Positions 6,549 to 34,936 of a stretch of 35,441 bases of DNA are shown here, in pieces; positions within the stretch are counted from its first letter, which is position 1, and every line of letters starts with the position of its first letter. Under the pieces are notes generated by a model. The model had not been told where the DNA came from and searched no databases. It saw only the letters and a program-made list of their open reading frames with translations. The translations under genes and the position numbers were made by a program. The DNA comes from Clostridium sp. (GTDB lineage Bacteria > Bacillota > Clostridia > Clostridiales > Clostridiaceae), in NCBI RefSeq assembly GCF_021372645.1, contig NZ_JAJFUC010000097.1, forward strand, positions 1-35,441, in the 5' to 3' direction.

Positions 6549-7097
6549 TTATTGCTCCATTTGTTTTCCTAAAAATGCTGCTGCTGTTTCAACTAATTTT
6601 GTTTCAACTTCACCGAGTTCTACATCTTCTTTTGATATAATGATTACAGCGCCAATTTGATCACCTTCTGCTATGATTGGTGATATAACTTGACTATTAT
6701 AAGTTGATTCGTCATCATCATTATGTAATGGTATTACTGTATTGGTAGATTTATTTAATAATACAGTTTTTCTTTCATCCATTATTTTTTCTAATTCACT
6801 ACTTACTTTTCTTTCTACATATTCCTTTTTAGTTGCTCCACTCACCGAAATAAATGCATCTTTGTCAGCTATTAAGACAACGTGCCCTATAACTTGTTGT
6901 AAACTATCACAATACTCTTTTGAAAAATTAGTAAGTTCTTCAATTGGTGAATACTTTTTTAGAATCACGCCACCGTCTCTATCCGTAAAGATCTCTAGTG
7001 GATCTCCTTCTCTTATTCTTAAAGTTCGCCTTATTTCTTTTGGTATTACCACTCTTCCTAGATCATCAATTCTTCTAACAATTCCTGTTGCTTTCAT
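6549..7097 (-). CDS. spoVT: Stage V sporulation transcription regulator SpoVT
   Basis: 182 residues. Residues 1-~50 are an AbrB-type swapped-hairpin DNA-binding domain (MKATGIVRRIDDLGRVVIPK, then IREGDPLEIF), almost identical in wording to Bacillus SpoVT. Residues ~55-180 form a GAF-like sensor domain. SpoVT is a late forespore regulator that tunes sigma-G genes. The ATG has AAAGGAGG 11 bases upstream. It stands apart from prsA behind a strong terminator and probably has its own forespore promoter. Confidence 0.95.
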   Translation of the reverse strand: MKATGIVRRIDDLGRVVIPKEIRRTLRIREGDPLEIFTDRDGGVILKKYSPIEELTNFSKEYCDSLQQVIGHVVLIADKDAFISVSGATKKEYVERKVSSELEKIMDERKTVLLNKSTNTVIPLHNDDDESTYNSQVISPIIAEGDQIGAVIIISKEDVELGEVETKLVETAAAFLGKQMEQ

Positions 7098-7171: not shown

Positions 7172-7233
7172 ACTTATAGACAAATTTTATATAAAATTTA
7201 TTTTTCATAAGTCAAAGTGGCTAACTGTGATAT

Positions 7234-7275
7234 TTGAAGTCTTAATTTCTTATAAATGAAAAATTAAGACTTCAA
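7234..7275. repeat. Perfect 15-base inverted repeat upstream of spoVT
   Basis: TTGAAGTCTTAATTT (7234-7248) and its exact complement AAATTAAGACTTCAA (7261-7275) are separated by 12 bases. No T-run follows on either strand. It sits between the prsA terminator and the spoVT promoter region. Confidence 0.75.
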
Positions 7276-7299
7276 GATTAAATTAATATTATGTGATTT

Positions 7300-7350
7300 A
7301 AATAAAGAAGGCTGTCTTAAAATAATTATTTAAAACAGCCTTCTTTATTT
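7300..7350 (-). terminator. Strong bidirectional-looking terminator after prsA
   Basis: Arms of about 20 bases (AAATAAAGAAGGCTGT and its complement, with one mismatch deeper in) surround an AT loop. It lies 69 bases after the prsA stop and closes the leftward transcript from prsA. Confidence 0.85.
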
Positions 7351-7418
7351 ATTCAAAATTGTTCATAATTTGACCACTTAATATTAAAGATTATTAATTA
7401 CCTATTTGTCATTGATAA

Positions 7419-8453
7419 TTATAATTGATCCGCGTTAGTTTTAACTTTTAACGCTGTTTTCCATTCCGCTATTTTAGAATTAAAAGCATCTCCTTGTTTT
7501 TGTTGTAACAATGTTGATTTAATTTCATCTTTAGCTTTATCTAGTGGAGTTACTTCTGCCTGTTTTAATCCAGTAGCTTTAATTATATGATATCCATATT
7601 GACTCTTTACTGGTTGTGAAACTTCTCCCTCTTTTAAATTCTTAAATCCATCCATAAATTCAGGAACTAATTGTGTTGAATTATATGCTACAAATCCTAA
7701 GCTACCACCTTTATCCTTAGTTCCTGTATCTGTTGAATTTGCCTTCGCTATTGTTGCAAAATCAGCGCCAGCATCTATTTGTGCTTTCAATGAATTAGCC
7801 TTTTGCAATGATGCATCATAATCTATCGACCCATCACTAGCTTTTTCAGCAATTAAAATATGTGCTACTGTTGCTCCCGCACCTACTGAATATTTAGTAT
7901 CCTTATTTTCATCATAATATGTTTGAACATCATCATCTGTAACTGTTACATCTTTCAACATATCTTGTTGAACTGCATTTGTTATAATTTGATTCTTTAA
8001 AGATTCTTTAAGTTCATCCTCTGTAATACGATTTTGTTGTAAAACACTTTCCCATTGTCCTTCTTCAGAATATTGAGCCTTGTACTGATTTATCTGATTA
8101 TCAATTTGTTTATCTATATCATCATCAGATGGTTTAAGATTTAACTCAGTAGCTTTTTGTAAAAGTATCTTTTCTGTTACCATACTATCTAATTGTTGTT
8201 GCTTAATTTTTGTTATTTGATCTTTGACTTTATCATTAGTTGCATAATCATCTCCATACTGTTGTTTTAACTGAGCATCATATTTACTCATTTCTTTATC
8301 AAAATCGCCTTTTGTTATTTTTTCATTTCCAACTGTTGCAAGAACTGTTTTTTGTATTGCTTCTGGTGTCTTCTCAATCATCTTGCATCCCATAGCTGAT
8401 ACTGCAATTGTCAAAATAGCTATTGTTGCAATAATTTTTTTTATTTTTTTCAA
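7419..8453 (-). CDS. prsA: PrsA-type peptidyl-prolyl isomerase lipoprotein
   Basis: 344 residues. An N-terminal lipoprotein signal (basic MKKIKK, hydrophobic core, lipobox AMGC with the anchoring Cys near residue 23) places it outside the membrane. A SurA-like N-domain at ~30-190 is followed by a parvulin domain at ~195-300 (VAHILIAEKAS, GGSLGFV, SQYGYHIIKATG). It helps exported proteins fold. The start is TTG at 8453, with GAGGGG 7 bases upstream; no ATG could supply the complete signal peptide. It follows mfd with about 200 bases of spacer. Confidence 0.9.
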   Translation of the reverse strand: MKKIKKIIATIAILTIAVSAMGCKMIEKTPEAIQKTVLATVGNEKITKGDFDKEMSKYDAQLKQQYGDDYATNDKVKDQITKIKQQQLDSMVTEKILLQKATELNLKPSDDDIDKQIDNQINQYKAQYSEEGQWESVLQQNRITEDELKESLKNQIITNAVQQDMLKDVTVTDDDVQTYYDENKDTKYSVGAGATVAHILIAEKASDGSIDYDASLQKANSLKAQIDAGADFATIAKANSTDTGTKDKGGSLGFVAYNSTQLVPEFMDGFKNLKEGEVSQPVKSQYGYHIIKATGLKQAEVTPLDKAKDEIKSTLLQQKQGDAFNSKIAEWKTALKVKTNADQL

Positions 8454-8656: not shown

Positions 8657-11600
8657 TTACAATACTATGTCATTGAAAACTTCCTTTAAAAATTCTAATT
8701 TATTTTCTTTCTTTATATCTTTCAATTTGAATGAAAAATAAGGATTCTCTCCAAATTTCAATACCACGCTCTTCTTATACTTATCCATTAAAGTCTTAAA
8801 TATTTTCTTATATTCACTTTCGTTTTGTGCAAATTTAAATATTATTTCCTTAGGAGTTTCTTTTATTTCTTCTATAAAGATTGATTTAGCTTGACTCTTT
8901 ATGTATGCAATATCCATCAAGTTATACACTGGTTCTGGTATCTTAGAATATCTATCTTCTAATTCTTCCTTTATATCATTGTAATCATCTAATCCTTCAA
9001 TTGCAGCTATCTTTTTATAAACCTCAATCTTTTGAATTTCATCATCTATATAACTTTCTGATATAAATGCATCAACTTTTATATCTAACGTTGTTTCTAT
9101 AGGTTCCTTTTTAACTTCTCCCTTAAGTAGCTTAACTGTATCTTCAAGCATTCTGCAATATAAGTCATATCCTATTGATGCCATATGACCATGTTGAGAC
9201 GAACCCATCATATTACCTGCCCCTCTGATTTCTAAGTCCCTCATAGCTATCTTAAAGCCAGAACCTAGTTCAGTAAAGTCTTTTAGTGCCTTAAGCCTTT
9301 TTTCTGCAACCTCTGTCAAAACTTTATCTTTAGTGTATAAAAGATATGCATATGCAATCCTATTAGATCTACCTACTCTACCTCTTAATTGATAAAGTTG
9401 AGATAGTCCCATCTTATCTGAATTGTAAATTATTATTGTGTTTACATTTTGAATATCCATTCCTGTCTCTATTATGGTTGTACAAACTAATACGTTATAT
9501 TCTTGTGACATAAAATCAAACATTTCTCTTTCAAGCTGTCTTTCTGCCATTTGACCGTGAGCAATTCCAACCTTACTTTCTGGAACTAAAGCTTGCACAA
9601 ACTTAGCCATTCTTTCAATGTCTTCAACTCTATTATATACAAAATAAACCTGGCCACCCCTACCTATTTCTCTAAGAATGGCATCTCTTATGAGTTGATC
9701 ATTTTGTTCTACAACATATGTTTGAATAGGGTATCTCTCTTCTGGTGGAGTTTCTATAACGGAAATATCTCTAACTCCACTTAGTGACATATGAAGAGTT
9801 CTAGGAATTGGAGTTGCACTTAAAGTTAAAACATCAACATTTCTCTTAATGTTTTTAATTTTTTCTTTTTGTTTTACTCCAAATCTTTGTTCTTCATCTA
9901 CTACTAGCAATCCTAAATCTTTAAAAAGTATATCTTTCGATACTAGTCTATGGGTACCTATTAAAATATCTAAGTTACCTTCTTTTGCCTTCTGTAAAAT
10001 TTCTTTTTGTTGTTTAGCTGTTCTAAATCTACTAACCATATCTATCTTTATAGGAAAATCGGAAAATCTATTTTTTATATTTTTATAATGTTGCTCTGCT
10101 AAAATAGTAGTTGGAACCAATATTGCAACTTGTTTTCCATCCATGACAGCCTTAAATGAAGCTCTTAAAGCAACTTCAGTCTTCCCATATCCAACGTCCC
10201 CACATAAGAGTCTATCCATAGGCTTATCTGATTCCATATCTTGCTTTATCTCTTCTATTGATGTCAATTGGTCTGGAGTTTCTTCAAATGGGAACTCATC
10301 TTCAAATTGCTTTTGCCATTCAGTATCTTTAGGAAACTTATGTCCCTTTACAGTACTTCTCATAGCATAAAGTTTAACTAAATCTTCAGCTATTTCATTA
10401 ATTGATTTTCTTGCTTTTGCTTTTGCCTTTTGCCATTCAATGCTTCCAAGCTTATTAACCTTTGGAAATTTGCCTTCACTTCCAATGTATTTTTGAATTA
10501 AATCAAGTTGATCTACTGGAACATATAATTTATCACCTTTATCATATACGATATCTAGATAATCTCTTTTATGTCCTCCAACATCAATTTGCTTAATTCC
10601 TTTATAAACACCAATTCCGTGGTTAGCATGAACTACATAATCTCCCGGTTTTAGTTCTGCAAAGCTCTTTATCTTAGAAATTCCTTTTTTCTTTGATTTG
10701 CTATTTTTTAATTTCCTCTTTGCTTCACCAAACACTTCTCTATCTGATATTACACAAGTTTTGTAATCTGGATATTCAAAACCTTTTAATTGATTACCAA
10801 AAGTTATTACAACTTCACCATATTCAATTCTATCAACATTGTCTCTATAAATACTTTCTATTCCTCTATCTCTTAAAGTCCCTACTAATCGTTCTCCTCT
10901 AGCTCTTGTTCCTGATAATATTAATGTTTTATATCCAGCAGTTTTTTTGCTTAATATATCATCAATTAATAAATCCAATTGTCCTTGATAGTTATTTAAT
11001 GTTATTTGAACTATATCCACCATAGAAGATGGTGCAAGCCAATCAGTAGCCTTAGCTAGAACCTCAAAAAAAACAACATTTTTATCTTCGAATGATTCTA
11101 ATACCTCTTCTTTATTAACTAATAAGTTTCCCTGCCCTGGGAATATATCTCCCCTTTGAGAAAAGGCAGTAAAATTTTCTTCAAATTCTAAATACGTAGA
11201 TTCTAGTTTACCCTTACATCTTTGAACATTATCTACTATAAAAAAGTAATCTTTAAAGTAATCAAAAAAACTTTCTGTTTCCTTGGTGAAATACGGTAAA
11301 TAACTATCTATTGTTTCAAAAGATGATGTTTCTTCTAATAATTCTAAGTTTTTGTTTAATATTTTTCTTAATTTTTCTACTCTTTCATTATCTTTATCAC
11401 TTAATGCAATTCTATCAAACTCTTCTTTAAGCTTATCACGTCCAAATTTTATGGTTTCTTCAGATATTATTATTTCTTTTGCAGGGAAAATATCTAATTT
11501 TTTCACTTTTTCAATACTTCGTTGAGATTCTGTATTAAAGATTCTAATAGATTCTATTTCATCACCAAAAAGTTCAACTCTACATGGATAAGTTGAACAC

Positions 11601-22270: not shown

Positions 22271-22609
22271 TTATTCCCCTACAGTAATTATATTACTTGC
22301 ATAATGAAACATGCGATGATGATTTGCACAAAGAATAATTACATTATTAGGATTTTGCGTTCCATCTTTAGACAACATCTTTATATGATGTGCCTCACAA
22401 TAGCAGTTTCCATTGTCCATTTTAAAAGTATATCCGCATAATTGACATCTATATCCATACTTTTGCTTTAATATATTGACTATCTTTTGGTATCTTCTAA
22501 TTTTTTTAATTTTTTCTTCTATTGATTCATTCTCTACTACATCTATATCATCTAAAAAATCTTTTTCTATTTGTGAATCAATTTCTTCTTCATCAGTAAT
22601 AAATCCCAT
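22271..22609 (-). CDS. HNH endonuclease domain protein (possibly the separated C-terminal part of a larger gene)
   Basis: 112 residues. A charged N-terminal half leads into a zinc-supported McrA-like HNH nuclease: C55-x2-C58, CEAHHIKMLSKDG with H74-H75, N89, and C94-x2-HH with H97-H98. All nuclease residues are present. The ATG at 22609 has no ribosome site and lies inside the end of the preceding gene in another frame (43-base overlap); two TAA codons stand just upstream in its own frame. It is therefore either translationally coupled or the tail of one protein split by a frameshift. Target unknown. Confidence 0.75.
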   Translation of the reverse strand: MGFITDEEEIDSQIEKDFLDDIDVVENESIEEKIKKIRRYQKIVNILKQKYGYRCQLCGYTFKMDNGNCYCEAHHIKMLSKDGTQNPNNVIILCANHHRMFHYASNIITVGE

Positions 22610-23220
22610 AAGTGATTATTATTTATCATATTCAAATTATTTAACTTTAAATTAATAGTAGTTAAATTAGATAACGCATATTTCATTATTAGTTTTATTG
22701 CTATAGCTGATATAAAACGGTTGTAAATCTTAACTTTTTTCAGCTGCCCATTTTTAAGTCGATCAATTTCTATGTGAATATCGTCCATTACAAGTTTATT
22801 AAAAAATTTATCAATACCATTATTCAATACTTCATATTGTTCATCAGTAGCATAATCTTTACTTTCAGATACCTTTAATTTAGATATGATTTTTTTTGAT
22901 TTTAACAATAATTTATCGTATAATTTTTTATCAATAAAAGTGTCGTTTTGAATATTATATTTATCTAATAACATATTGAAAAAATCTGTTATTAGATAAA
23001 TATAATTCTGGGCTGTTCCCTGTGCAGTAATACTATTTTTTGCAATATAGTATTCAAGACTTCCAAGTAAATCATTGTCATTAAATAAAGAAAAATATTC
23101 ATTATCAAATTCTTCATTTTCATTATTAATTCCAAATTTCTCATATAAATATTCAATAAACACTTTTATCTTTGTATTCGAATTTTTTCTCTCAAATTCT
23201 TTTAAATTAAAATCAGACAA
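22567..23220 (-). CDS. Integrase-like protein lacking catalytic residues, or N-terminal part of a broken integrase/HNH gene
   Basis: 217 residues from a TTG at 23220; the upstream ATG (23235) is embedded in the ribosome site ATGGAGGTGGGGG. The composition is rich in Asn, Lys, Ile and Leu. Residues ~45-95 (LEYYIAKN...NYIYLITDFFNMLLD) resemble the SAM-like core-binding domain of tyrosine recombinases. Near the C-terminus KLIMKYALSNLTTINLKLNNL resembles the first catalytic helix, but without the conserved Arg; the remaining catalytic blocks are absent. It overlaps the HNH ORF, which continues one frame away (a -1 shift would fuse them into about 316 residues). Family assignment is tentative. Confidence 0.5.
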   Translation of the reverse strand: MSDFNLKEFERKNSNTKIKVFIEYLYEKFGINNENEEFDNEYFSLFNDNDLLGSLEYYIAKNSITAQGTAQNYIYLITDFFNMLLDKYNIQNDTFIDKKLYDKLLLKSKKIISKLKVSESKDYATDEQYEVLNNGIDKFFNKLVMDDIHIEIDRLKNGQLKKVKIYNRFISAIAIKLIMKYALSNLTTINLKLNNLNMINNNHLWDLLLMKKKLIHK

Positions 23221-23370
23221 TTCCCCCACCTCCATAAACTAACACTTCTTCATAATGCTCCACCTTAATGTATTTATTGTAACATACTTTATAAGTTATG
23301 CATTTTTTAAAATTTCATTTAGGGAAAATTGTGCGTCTAATTGGGGGCTATGTGGTGTCAGCTTATTCAA

Positions 23371-23398
23371 TAAAAAATCCCCCGAAATAGGGGGATTT
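23371..23398 (-). terminator. Strong leftward terminator with no annotated gene feeding it
   Basis: AAATCCCCC and GGGGGATTT pair perfectly around a 6-base loop; the T-run (ATTTTTTATT) is on the minus strand, so it stops leftward transcription. No minus-strand gene lies immediately to its right; the small-peptide cassette there is on the plus strand. It could end an antisense RNA. Confidence 0.75.
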
Positions 23399-23409
23399 AA
23401 ATTATTATA

Positions 23410-23438
23410 TTTACAATAGTATCTATAAAATATATAAT
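23410..23438 (+). promoter_or_regulatory. Sigma-A promoter of the small-peptide cassette
   Basis: TTTACA (23410-23415), a 17-base spacer and a perfect TATAAT (23433-23438). The predicted start is near 23445, leaving a leader of about 175 bases. Confidence 0.7.
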
Positions 23439-23445
23439 ATTCCTT

Positions 23446-23604
23446 GTACAAGTTTCCATTCGACTTGTATACCTATCTTTCTTTATCGTCAATCTCGTAA
23501 TTAAGAGATTAACGATAATTGGTCATGGTAACATATGCAATTACCAATAGTTGATGTTAATTAACTATTATGTGATTGCCTAAATGTAATCATCCAATTC
23601 AAAG
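23446..23604 (+). promoter_or_regulatory. Multi-hairpin leader of the small-peptide gene
   Basis: Five consecutive hairpins can be drawn: TACAAGT/ACTTGTA (23447-23469), TATCGTcAATCTC/GAGATTaACGATA (23484-23517, 12 pairs with one mismatch), TGGTAA/TTACCA (23526-23546, competing with ATTGGT/ACCAAT), AATAGTT/AACTATT (23546-23569) and TGATT/AATCA (23573-23592). They end just before the ribosome site. Such a leader fits translation control, or an antisense or ligand target; no known riboswitch class was recognised. Confidence 0.55.
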
Positions 23605-23619
23605 AAAGGAGGTACACTT

Positions 23620-23733
23620 ATGGTAGAATTTACTGTAGTCATAAATGTGTGGAGCCTAATTAGTTGGTTTGTAGGTGGTATGTTTATTAATATATTGTCT
23701 GCACTCATTTGTAAACGCTGGTTAGGTATTTAA
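23620..23733 (+). CDS. 37-residue hydrophobic peptide, type I toxin-like
   Basis: The ORF starts with ATG 7 bases after a strong AAAGGAGG and ends in TAA at 23731-23733. The peptide has a short start (MVEF), a hydrophobic stretch at about residues 4-30 able to span the membrane once (TVVINVWSLISWFVGG...), and a basic/aromatic tail CKRWLGI. It is bounded by its own promoter, a 175-base structured leader and a perfect 13-base-pair terminator that begins in its stop codon. Length, one membrane segment, basic C-terminal tail and long structured leader match type I toxins of Gram-positive bacteria; I do not recognise the exact family. Alternatives: small membrane regulator or bacteriocin-like peptide. 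Confidence 0.65.
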   Translation: MVEFTVVINVWSLISWFVGGMFINILSALICKRWLGI

Positions 23734-23761
23734 AAAGAAAGGCGTTTTCGCCTTTCTTTTT
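23732..23761 (+). terminator. Strong terminator of the small-peptide cassette
   Basis: AAAAAGAAAGGCG and CGCCTTTCTTTTT form a perfect 13-pair stem with a TTTT loop and T-rich end; the first arm overlaps the TAA of the peptide gene. Confidence 0.9.
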
Positions 23762-24117
23762 AAATTAAAATATCTTTGAAATTGTCATATATAAGAATAA
23801 TAAAAGAAATAAATATAATAAACATATTCCCATCTATCCAACCCATAAGATAAAGAAAAACATTAAGGACAACATCTCCAACTGAAAGTATTGCCCTTAA
23901 TAATTGATTTACTCCCTATATACTTTTAATTGCTCTTTATACTGTTGAGTCTTATGAAACCCACATGACTTATACTCATAACAATTTAGCCCAAACAAGA
24001 AAATCTGCTTCGCAGACTGTGTGTTTCTGCTTATTTTCTTTAACAATAATTTTTGTTAACAATTTATTCATATTTAAAATTGCTTTACTAACCATGTATT
24101 TATACTACTTTTAAAAG
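23762..24117. other. Non-coding or decayed stretch
   Basis: No supported gene. A minus-strand frame is open from about 23915 to 23760 (hydrophobic, VGDVVLNVFLYLMGWIDGN) but has no usable start or ribosome site and may be debris. Small hairpins TCTGC/GCAGA (24004-24016) and TTAACAA/TTGTTAA (24040-24059) are present. Confidence 0.4.
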
Positions 24118-24219: not shown

Positions 24220-25185
24220 ATGAGAGATATATTATATCTTGTGATTCCTTGCTATAATGAAGAAGAGGTTTTACACGAAACTGCTAAAAGATTATTGGAA
24301 AAAATGAATACTATGATTACAAATCGACTTATTTCTAATAATAGTAAAATATTTTTTGTTAATGATGGTTCAAAAGATAATACTTGGAGTATAATTGAAG
24401 AATATCATTGTAAAAATGATATATTTTCTGGAGTCAATCTGTCAAGAAATAGAGGACATCAAAATGCTTTACTTGCAGGACTTATGACTGCTAAAGACTA
24501 TTGCGACATGGCTATATCATTAGATGCAGATTTGCAAGATGATGTAGATGTTATAGATGAATTTGTAAAACAATATTATGATGGATGTGATATTGTTTAT
24601 GGAGTAAGGTCATCAAGACAGACCGATAAATTCTTTAAAAGAATAACGGCAATAGCTTTCTATAAATTTATGCACACCCTTGGTGTTGATATGATTTTTA
24701 ATCATGCTGATTACCGCCTTATGAGTAGCCGTGCTTTAGAAAGCTTAAATGAATATAAAGAGGTTAACCTATTCCTAAGAGGCATGGTTACTTTAATAGG
24801 ATATAAATATTCAATTGTTGAATATGAACGTCATGAAAGATTTGCTGGCGAATCTAAATATCCACTCAAGAAAATGATTGCTTTTGCTTTAGATGGCATT
24901 ACCTCTCTTAGCATAAAGCCTATAAGAATAATAACAGTTCTTGGTTTTACCATATTTTTTGTTAGTATTCTAGCGTTAATCTATTCTCTTGTGGTTAAAT
25001 TCATAGGAAGCACTGTTACCGGTTGGACTTCTTTGACGCTTTCCATTTGGATGCTTGGAGGAGTACAGCTCTTATCTCTTGGTATTATAGGAGAGTATGT
25101 TGGCAAAATATATAATGAAACTAAGAGAAGACCACGATTTATTATTTCTGATAAATTAATTAACACTGATAAAAAGGATAATTAG
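24220..25185 (+). CDS. Polyprenyl-phosphate glycosyltransferase, GtrB-like (GT2)
   Basis: 321 residues. The N-terminal GT-A domain (~1-225) has VIPCYNEEE, FVNDGSKDNTW, the nucleotide-sugar DxD region LDADLQDD, and ERFAGESKYPLKKM leading to the membrane. Two hydrophobic segments follow (~240-262 and ~272-295). The family transfers a sugar to undecaprenyl phosphate on the inner membrane face. TGGAGGCG precedes the ATG. The next gene is a GtrA-like flippase, the standard partner, so the pair likely decorates a wall polymer or glycan; the sugar is unknown. Confidence 0.9.
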   Translation: MRDILYLVIPCYNEEEVLHETAKRLLEKMNTMITNRLISNNSKIFFVNDGSKDNTWSIIEEYHCKNDIFSGVNLSRNRGHQNALLAGLMTAKDYCDMAISLDADLQDDVDVIDEFVKQYYDGCDIVYGVRSSRQTDKFFKRITAIAFYKFMHTLGVDMIFNHADYRLMSSRALESLNEYKEVNLFLRGMVTLIGYKYSIVEYERHERFAGESKYPLKKMIAFALDGITSLSIKPIRIITVLGFTIFFVSILALIYSLVVKFIGSTVTGWTSLTLSIWMLGGVQLLSLGIIGEYVGKIYNETKRRPRFIISDKLINTDKKDN

Positions 25186-34600: not shown

Positions 34601-34807
34601 ATGAAAGATTTTGTATTAGATTCAACGTATAAAGATGCTACTATTGTTAATTGTAATGATGATATTTTCATTACTCCATCTAATAACGTGCCTTGCAACT
34701 CAACTGCTCACCATACAGTAAATTTAAATCAAACTAATTCTAATTGTAGTGCTAATCATAACAAAAATAATAAATTTAATATTTATAGAATAATTGACTA
34801 TTTATAA
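34601..34807 (+). CDS. Small Cys/Asn/His-rich protein of unknown function
   Basis: 68 residues from an ATG with GAGAGG about 12 bases upstream; a TTG at 34580 would add seven residues but overlaps the ribosome site. The N-terminal 30 residues look folded (MKDFVLDSTYKDATIVNCND), followed by a polar stretch with Cys, His and many Asn (NLNQTNSNCSANHNKN). There is no signal peptide or membrane segment. Three Cys and several His could bind metal, but this is speculative. Its stop codon lies inside the first stem of the TPP-like element. Moderate confidence that it is a real gene. Confidence 0.45.
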   Translation: MKDFVLDSTYKDATIVNCNDDIFITPSNNVPCNSTAHHTVNLNQTNSNCSANHNKNNKFNIYRIIDYL

Positions 34808-34894
34808 GAGGATCCAATAGGCTGAGATTTGTTATTCATAAACTCTTTAAACCTAATCTGGTTAATTCTTAAAAAATCCAGTAAAAATAGGATT
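34798..34894 (+). promoter_or_regulatory. Degenerate TPP-riboswitch-like element
   Basis: The two most conserved THI-box strings are present in order: GGCTGAGA (34820-34827) and ACCTAATCTGGTTAAT (34851-34866; usual ACCTGATCTGGGTAAT). Helices fit: P1 CTATTT/AAATAG (34798-34803, 34885-34890), P2 AAGAG/CTCTT (34806-34810, 34843-34847), P3 CC/GG, P5 CTGG/CCAG (CCAG at 34878-34881) with a longer-than-usual loop, then TAGGATT in place of TAGGGA. A terminator overlaps its end. No thiamine gene follows on this strand within the window. Confidence 0.5.
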
Positions 34895-34936
34895 AATATT
34901 TGCTTTTATGCAGCTATCAATCCTATTTTTATTGGA
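34877..34936. terminator. Terminator after the TPP-like element and opposite ferredoxin
   Basis: AAAAATAGGATT and AATCCTATTTTT are exact complements, extended by TCCA/TGGA outside, around a 24-base loop. T-runs occur on both strands, so it can end both the plus-strand leader and the leftward ferredoxin transcript. Confidence 0.8.

Follow-up and report, generated by a model that had tools for sequence, protein, structure and literature searches.

A putative type I toxin-like membrane peptide gene in Clostridium with a predicted translational lock in its own mRNA and phage-linked relatives

Our analysis of a 35,441-nucleotide stretch of DNA from Clostridium sp. (contig NZ_JAJFUC010000097.1, hereafter the window) suggests that a compact unit at 23410-23761 of the plus strand is transcribed on its own and encodes a type I toxin-like membrane peptide, which belongs to a phage-linked family and whose translation would be locked in cis. 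We place the probability of this reading at about 0.57. The peptide family carries no name and, since two related copies are predicted to keep the same lock, the sequences suggest a new family of genes resembling those of type I toxins. In one relative the family is carried by a prophage, and a phage probably brought it to the window as well.

The promoter, Shine-Dalgarno (SD) sequence AAAGGAGG, 37-codon ORF and 13-pair terminator proposed in the initial annotation are all present where it had placed them. The promoter, TTTACA-17-TATAAT (23410-23438), lies just ahead of a 5′ hairpin and scores 9.7 under hand-set sigma-A-like weights, higher than any other promoter-like site on the plus strand of the cassette. 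The promoters of the two homologues described below, also located just ahead of a 5′ hairpin, are likewise the top plus-strand sites, with 8.2 in genome G179 and 7.8 in Clostridium puniceum, where the lead over a site inside the ORF (7.6) is narrow. Transcription would start near 23445, a position derived from the promoter only, and the resulting plus-strand leader has the length of about 175 nt first proposed for it. In the best fold, this leader begins with a hairpin at the predicted 5′ end (TGTACAAGTT..GACTTGTATA, 23445-23471), followed by a pyrimidine tract complementary to the SD (the anti-SD tract, CCT-A-TCTTTCTTT, 23472-23484) and a variable middle with two branches (23485-23600). The SD region AAAGAAAGGAGG occupies 23601-23612, and its core (23605-23612) ends seven bases before the ATG at 23620. 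The ORF (23620-23733, MVEFTVVINVWSLISWFVGGMFINILSALICKRWLGI) encodes a hydrophobic, single-helix peptide of 37 residues, and its stop codon is overlapped by the intrinsic terminator (23732-23744/23749-23761), a perfect stem closed by a TTTT loop. The leader had been described as five consecutive hairpins; the best fold has instead the 5′ hairpin and then a closed multibranch structure with two inner branches. An open antisense frame over the ORF was dropped, as no SD could be seen by eye. No gathering-level Rfam match was obtained in the cassette, and sub-threshold matches in 23250-23800, the best of 31 bits against a cut-off of 55, were taken as chance. Far from the cassette, 34797-34904 resembles a TPP riboswitch (RF00059). 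The whole-model match scores 23.9 bits, where the cut-off is 54.3; a search of 221 bases gave it E 0.0075, and one of 501 bases did not report it at E ≤ 0.01. The stretch is followed by a strong hairpin at about 34876-34936, and may be a decayed riboswitch.

When the window peptide alone was used to search 206 genomes of the same taxonomic family, one copy was found in C. puniceum (G022, contig NZ_LZZM01000222.1; 59% identity, E 6e-9) and another in G179 (45% identity over residues 1-34, E 0.03). The latter was accepted as a homologue because, like the window cassette, it starts with MVEFT, has an SD and a terminator, and is laid out in the same way; in this single-sequence search it is preceded in E-value by two chance-looking matches with internal stops (G065 and G162). 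Altogether 46 of the 206 genomes matched at E ≤ 1, and the 43 other than the window's own, C. puniceum and G179, none above 19 bits, were regarded as chance; besides the two with stops inside, some of these are open but lie in longer frames. In a scan of 57 loci, MVEFT peptides preceded by an SD were found only in the window's own genome, C. puniceum and G179. With a model built from the same three peptides, a full-length match was obtained in just three of the 206 genomes, own included (E < 1e-18), most of the family thus being without the cassette; 27 genomes matched at E ≤ 0.1, 24 of them partially and with at most 21.4 bits. No further full-length member was detected in 391 genomes of the class (12 at E ≤ 0.01 including the own one; the 11 others are partial, reach at most 23.3 bits, and had their two shortest frames inspected) or in 378 genomes of the phylum (the own genome being the single match at E ≤ 0.001), in samples that overlap between family, class and phylum.

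Pattern searches gave 265 stretches in genome contigs, one of which is a relative, and 57 in viral contigs, none of which was confirmed; one viral contig fitting the SD-start pattern was rejected, as it encodes an unrelated protein. In a phage collection, there was no credible tblastn match to the window peptide (one weak, E 4) and none to the G179 peptide, and plasmid records contained no match to the window peptide. The TTGTACA-containing hairpin was abandoned as a cassette marker: the pattern occurs in 89 of the 206 genomes, one other occurrence inspected by eye (L128) has no cassette, and the G179 cassette itself falls outside the pattern with its -10 box TACAAT. Searches of Pfam, NCBIfam, PHROGs and PADLOC returned nothing for the window peptide at E ≤ 1, in line with the initial annotation, which had not recognized the family; for the homologues, the only matches, to phrog_16195 (E 0.3) and to a PTS model (E 0.03), were taken as chance. 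In the collection of papers searched, there was no mention of an MVEFTV peptide, nor of a small protein in C. puniceum.

All three peptides begin with MVEFT, carry GG within the helix and end in a short CK..G tail; 15 alignment columns are invariant, including M-V-E-F, GG, CK and a near-terminal G. Pairwise pN/pS values of 0.56, 0.72 and 0.41, which derive from small numbers at few sites, suggest purifying selection on the peptide. AlphaFold, run on two sequences, predicts one helix spanning residues 2-35 (mean pLDDT 89, pTM 0.43), and the best 19-residue hydropathy of the window peptide is 2.03. Type I toxins are described, in the definition given by one source, as hydrophobic proteins of less than 60 residues with one predicted helix or transmembrane span (PMC8309996), and the 37-residue peptide has this length, hydrophobicity and single helix. 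The tails read CKRW, CKHF and CKYI, with net charges of +1, +2 and +1; cationic residues placed mostly at the C-terminus, a general trait of type I toxins with exceptions, are thus present, if weakly so beside lysine-rich tails. Homologues and structure prediction together support a self-contained gene for a conserved, short, one-helix hydrophobic peptide. Lack of conservation of the ORF in homologous regions had been named as one observation that would speak against such a gene, and the ORF is kept in both other cassette-bearing genomes.

The leader folds far better than expected from its composition. From the predicted start to the SD, the window leader reaches -57.1 kcal/mol against a shuffle mean of -26.1 (z -9.2, 100 shuffles), and for the whole mRNA z is -9.8, with none of 100 shuffles as good. 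Leaders fold better than their shuffles in all three copies (z -9.2, -6.5 and -5.1); the corresponding ORF values are -1.8, -0.2 and -4.4. As a yardstick, 420 stretches of 168 bases from the whole window and both strands, cassette-overlapping ones included and with 20 shuffles each, gave a mean z of -0.65 (sd 1.53). Values like that of the leader are rare in the window, but not unique, because an intergenic stretch at 7225 reaches -9.96, the lowest of all. Two very stable hairpins lie at this place (7235-7370), between the ORFs 6549-7097 and 7419-8453.

The predicted mRNAs have a common order of 5′ hairpin, anti-SD tract, variable stretch, SD and ATG. The 5′-end hairpin contains TTGTACA in all three, and 0, 2 or 15 nt separate it from the tract. 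The homologue leaders are only about 98 nt long in all, with a variable middle much shorter than that of the window. The initial annotation's claim of a structured leader was sound, and the structure is predicted to bury the ribosome-binding site: in the best fold, the tract at 23472-23484 pairs with the SD region at 23601-23612 (pair probabilities 0.46-0.94) and so closes the multibranch structure. The mean unpaired probability of the SD is 0.04 in the window, 0.02 in C. puniceum and 0.004 in G179. By comparison, 23 hand-picked starts in the window average about 0.5 (summed by hand) and one of them falls below 0.05, these being mechanical ORF starts of which several have poor SDs. Without the 5′ hairpin and the tract, the unpaired probability rises to 0.63, 0.70 and 0.59, respectively. 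A buried ribosome-binding site, common but not universal among type I toxin genes, is thus predicted for all three homologues.

Comparison of the copies argues in the same direction. Pairs of the SD helix have changed on both sides between homologues at positions -19, -16, -13 and -10 from the ATG. At -16, -13 and -10, G179 differs on both sides from the window and C. puniceum, and at -19 an A-T pair in the window corresponds to T-A in C. puniceum, positions -19 and -18 of G179 being unpaired. These counts are small because the family has only three members. Moreover, the register of the helix in G179 is uncertain, although its SD is buried, because the pair probabilities are only 0.29-0.51 there (0.35-1.00 in C. 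puniceum). In duplex energies, each tract prefers its own SD over the other two in six of six comparisons; viewed from the SD, five of six hold, the exception being the window SD, to which one foreign tract binds slightly better than its own (-11.5 vs -11.3 kcal/mol). The window duplex (-11.3 kcal/mol) was equalled by none of 500 dinucleotide shuffles of its leader, and those of C. puniceum and G179 by one and none, respectively, of the same number. A possible second lock involves the start codon, which can pair with codons 5-11 in a hairpin of its own. This pairing is near certain in the C. puniceum and G179 predictions; in the window it lies at 23614-23650, involves about codons 7-11 and has a probability of about 0.4-0.6. 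The start-codon arms fit their own partners best in six of six cases. Pairing of the SD with the 3′ arm of the terminator appears possible by eye in the window and is not evident by eye in the homologues. Taken as a prediction, the cis lock is well supported by folding and by comparison across the three copies.

The association with phages differs between the three loci. In G179, the cassette (about 10635-10925 of locus L100) lies on the strand opposite to prophage genes, with a 75-residue ORF without match on one side and a phrog_36 transcription regulator on the other, beyond which follow genes for an HNH protein, the small and large terminase subunits, the portal and the major head protein. 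To one side of the C. puniceum cassette lie a phrog_20794 gene, an ORF that resembles HNH genes by eye, and a fragment of an integrase (phrog_1). Its other side holds a gene of 274 residues that no PHROG matches, and an ORF of 103 residues whose likeness to a terminase was judged by eye only. The phrog_20794 gene, which adjoins the cassette (L101, 11921-12826), matches that family of unknown function with E 2e-58. In the window, the neighbouring remnant on the minus strand (22271-23235) consists of two ORFs, one for an HNH protein (22271-22609) and one of 222 residues that has no match (22567-23235); the two overlap in different frames and may be one interrupted gene, and a long inverted repeat of about 20 pairs in the fold lies inside the 222-residue ORF (22954-23000). 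The cassette had been said to stand beside phage debris. Matches of the HNH neighbour to phage HNH families favour this description to some extent; it also resembles restriction enzymes, and what adjoins the cassette could be left over from a restriction system instead of a phage. To judge from their ORFs, the genes farther out in the window are probably housekeeping genes. Judged by its neighbours, the G179 copy shows the phage link, the C. puniceum copy is likely to have it, and for the window it is no more than plausible. For the family, the link comes mainly from the homologues.

How such a gene might work can be outlined by analogy. The short mRNA would start with the 5′ hairpin, which may stabilize its 5′ end, and the pyrimidine tract close behind would pair with the SD, while the start codon can sit in the second hairpin. 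With the SD paired and the start codon in a hairpin, the full-length mRNA should therefore be translationally silent by default, a proposal based on prediction and on the compensatory changes between homologues. If RNase processing or refolding removed or displaced the 5′ part, the SD would become accessible and the peptide could be made. It may then insert into the membrane and cause depolarization or slower growth, and the prophage could benefit through its own maintenance or through exclusion of other phages. We consider it rather likely that the peptide functions as a toxin. By this analogy, the gene is one that works like a type I toxin gene, and we refrain from counting it among type I toxin-antitoxin systems.

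A partner antisense RNA would be expected from the type I analogy, and we give its existence a little less than an even chance. The cassette could be a complete type I toxin-antitoxin module, with a cis antisense RNA transcribed from the minus strand inside the cassette and ending at the terminator-like hairpin 23398-23375. This fuller form of our preferred explanation, with which it is compatible, seems to us possible, on odds somewhat short of even. The hairpin, whose T-run is on the minus strand, sits immediately ahead of the promoter in both the window and C. puniceum and could indeed serve such a transcript. However, it belongs to a dispersed element some 90 bases long (23309-23398, no strand assigned) that is present elsewhere without the cassette, and the G179 copy has neither the upstream element nor its hairpin. 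Window and C. puniceum are 77% identical over 161 bases of element and promoter. With four candidates scored per genome, the element was found over most of its length in seven other genomes of the genus besides C. puniceum, and partly in at least three more; ten such loci, inspected by eye, had no cassette alongside, and the hairpin was kept in six of the ten. We thus rejected the hairpin as evidence for an antitoxin RNA, although it could still end one. The element, with the motif AAAATTTCATTTAGGGAAAA...GGGGGCTAGTGGTGTCAGC...AAAAAATCCCCC...GGGGG, is perhaps MITE- or REP-like; it stands twice (L079 and L084) beside what look by eye like IS200/IS605-like hairpins, and none of the viral contigs contains a 21-base piece of it. 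Minus-strand promoter scores are also ordinary: none stands out in the three cassettes (best 6.9, 5.6 and 6.3 under the same type of hand-set weights, a score of 6.3 recurring in the window roughly every 300 bases of each strand). A search of the flanks for an antitoxin acting in trans (at most 3 kb on either side, and a shorter stretch in C. puniceum, where the locus ends) found no perfect complementarity longer than 12 nt in either orientation among the ten best matches per locus. A quite different form of control would dispense with a dedicated antitoxin RNA altogether: the double cis-lock would be the main control of a phage-carried toxic peptide and, in G179, phage transcription would act as an antisense silencer, the peptide being made in the lysogen only. 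Two phage genes flank the G179 cassette, which runs antisense to them, and by eye the other strand of its terminator has no T-run, so that phage transcription could run antisense through the cassette; we nevertheless regard this proposal as a long shot.

The absence of an antitoxin from the promoter and flank-complementarity scans would also suit a harmless peptide. Genes for lysogenic conversion ('morons') usually have their own promoter and terminator and are oriented opposite to their neighbours, and the G179 cassette has this layout with respect to the adjoining phage genes. The product would then be a non-toxic prophage membrane peptide, for instance one for superinfection exclusion or membrane modulation, with the lock keeping its dose low or conditional. 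We find this unlikely, though worth keeping in mind, as a harmless peptide would hardly seem to need a brake as strong as a start site kept buried by compensatory changes, and such burying has been described for type I toxins. The very strong folding of the leader might instead mean that the structured RNA is itself the functional product, a regulatory RNA with an incidental ORF. That is highly improbable: the peptide start, the SD spacing and a near-equal length are kept in three genomes, with pN/pS below 1, whereas the leader middle varies in length and sequence. Even less credit can be given to a leader peptide or attenuator for the glycosyltransferase gene at 24220. Such a role would fit a short ORF that precedes a terminator and reads in the same direction as the gene downstream, but in both homologues the next downstream ORF is on the opposite strand, and the cassette therefore occurs without such a gene.

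Read as a type I toxin-like gene locked in cis, the cassette adds an unnamed peptide family, so far present in three of 206 genomes of the window's family, of a kind that annotation tends to miss because of its small size. The three divergent copies allow the cis-locking of a small membrane peptide to be compared, and they provide a system for asking if mRNA structure can hold back a toxin-like peptide with phage links, whether or not an antisense RNA takes part. Two reports that deal with clostridia state that most clostridial species yielded no homologues of the known type I toxins, and that short candidates were predicted in several (PMC6563280, PMC7699646). The prophage-borne toxins of C. 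difficile (CD0904.1-RCd13, CD0956.3-RCd14 and CD0977.1-RCd11) are described there as having 34-47 residues and AGGAGG 7-8 nt from the ATG (PMC7699646, PMC6563280), and the family presented here resembles these modules in its short hydrophobic peptides, its occurrence in a prophage and an SD at that distance. In contrast, the C. difficile toxins have a lysine-rich tail (PMC7699646), antisense RNAs and shown toxicity, whereas the peptide here ends in a short CKRWLGI tail. It accordingly differs from the C. difficile type, defined by a hydrophobic N-terminal and a lysine-rich C-terminal region and by homology, and no credible tblastn match of the peptide was seen in our phage collection, which may not include the C. 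difficile phages concerned. Many type I toxin mRNAs are inactive until processed, with timP as an exception that refolds, as outlined in part of PMC11228461, and SD-sequestering hairpins are reported for the aapA3 toxin mRNA in the relevant section of PMC6733600. As in the timP, tisB and aapA3 mRNAs, so far as these are treated in the sources cited, the SD or ribosome-binding site would be buried by intramolecular pairing; unlike in these, the anti-SD tract lies close behind the 5′ hairpin, and the start codon can enter a hairpin of its own.
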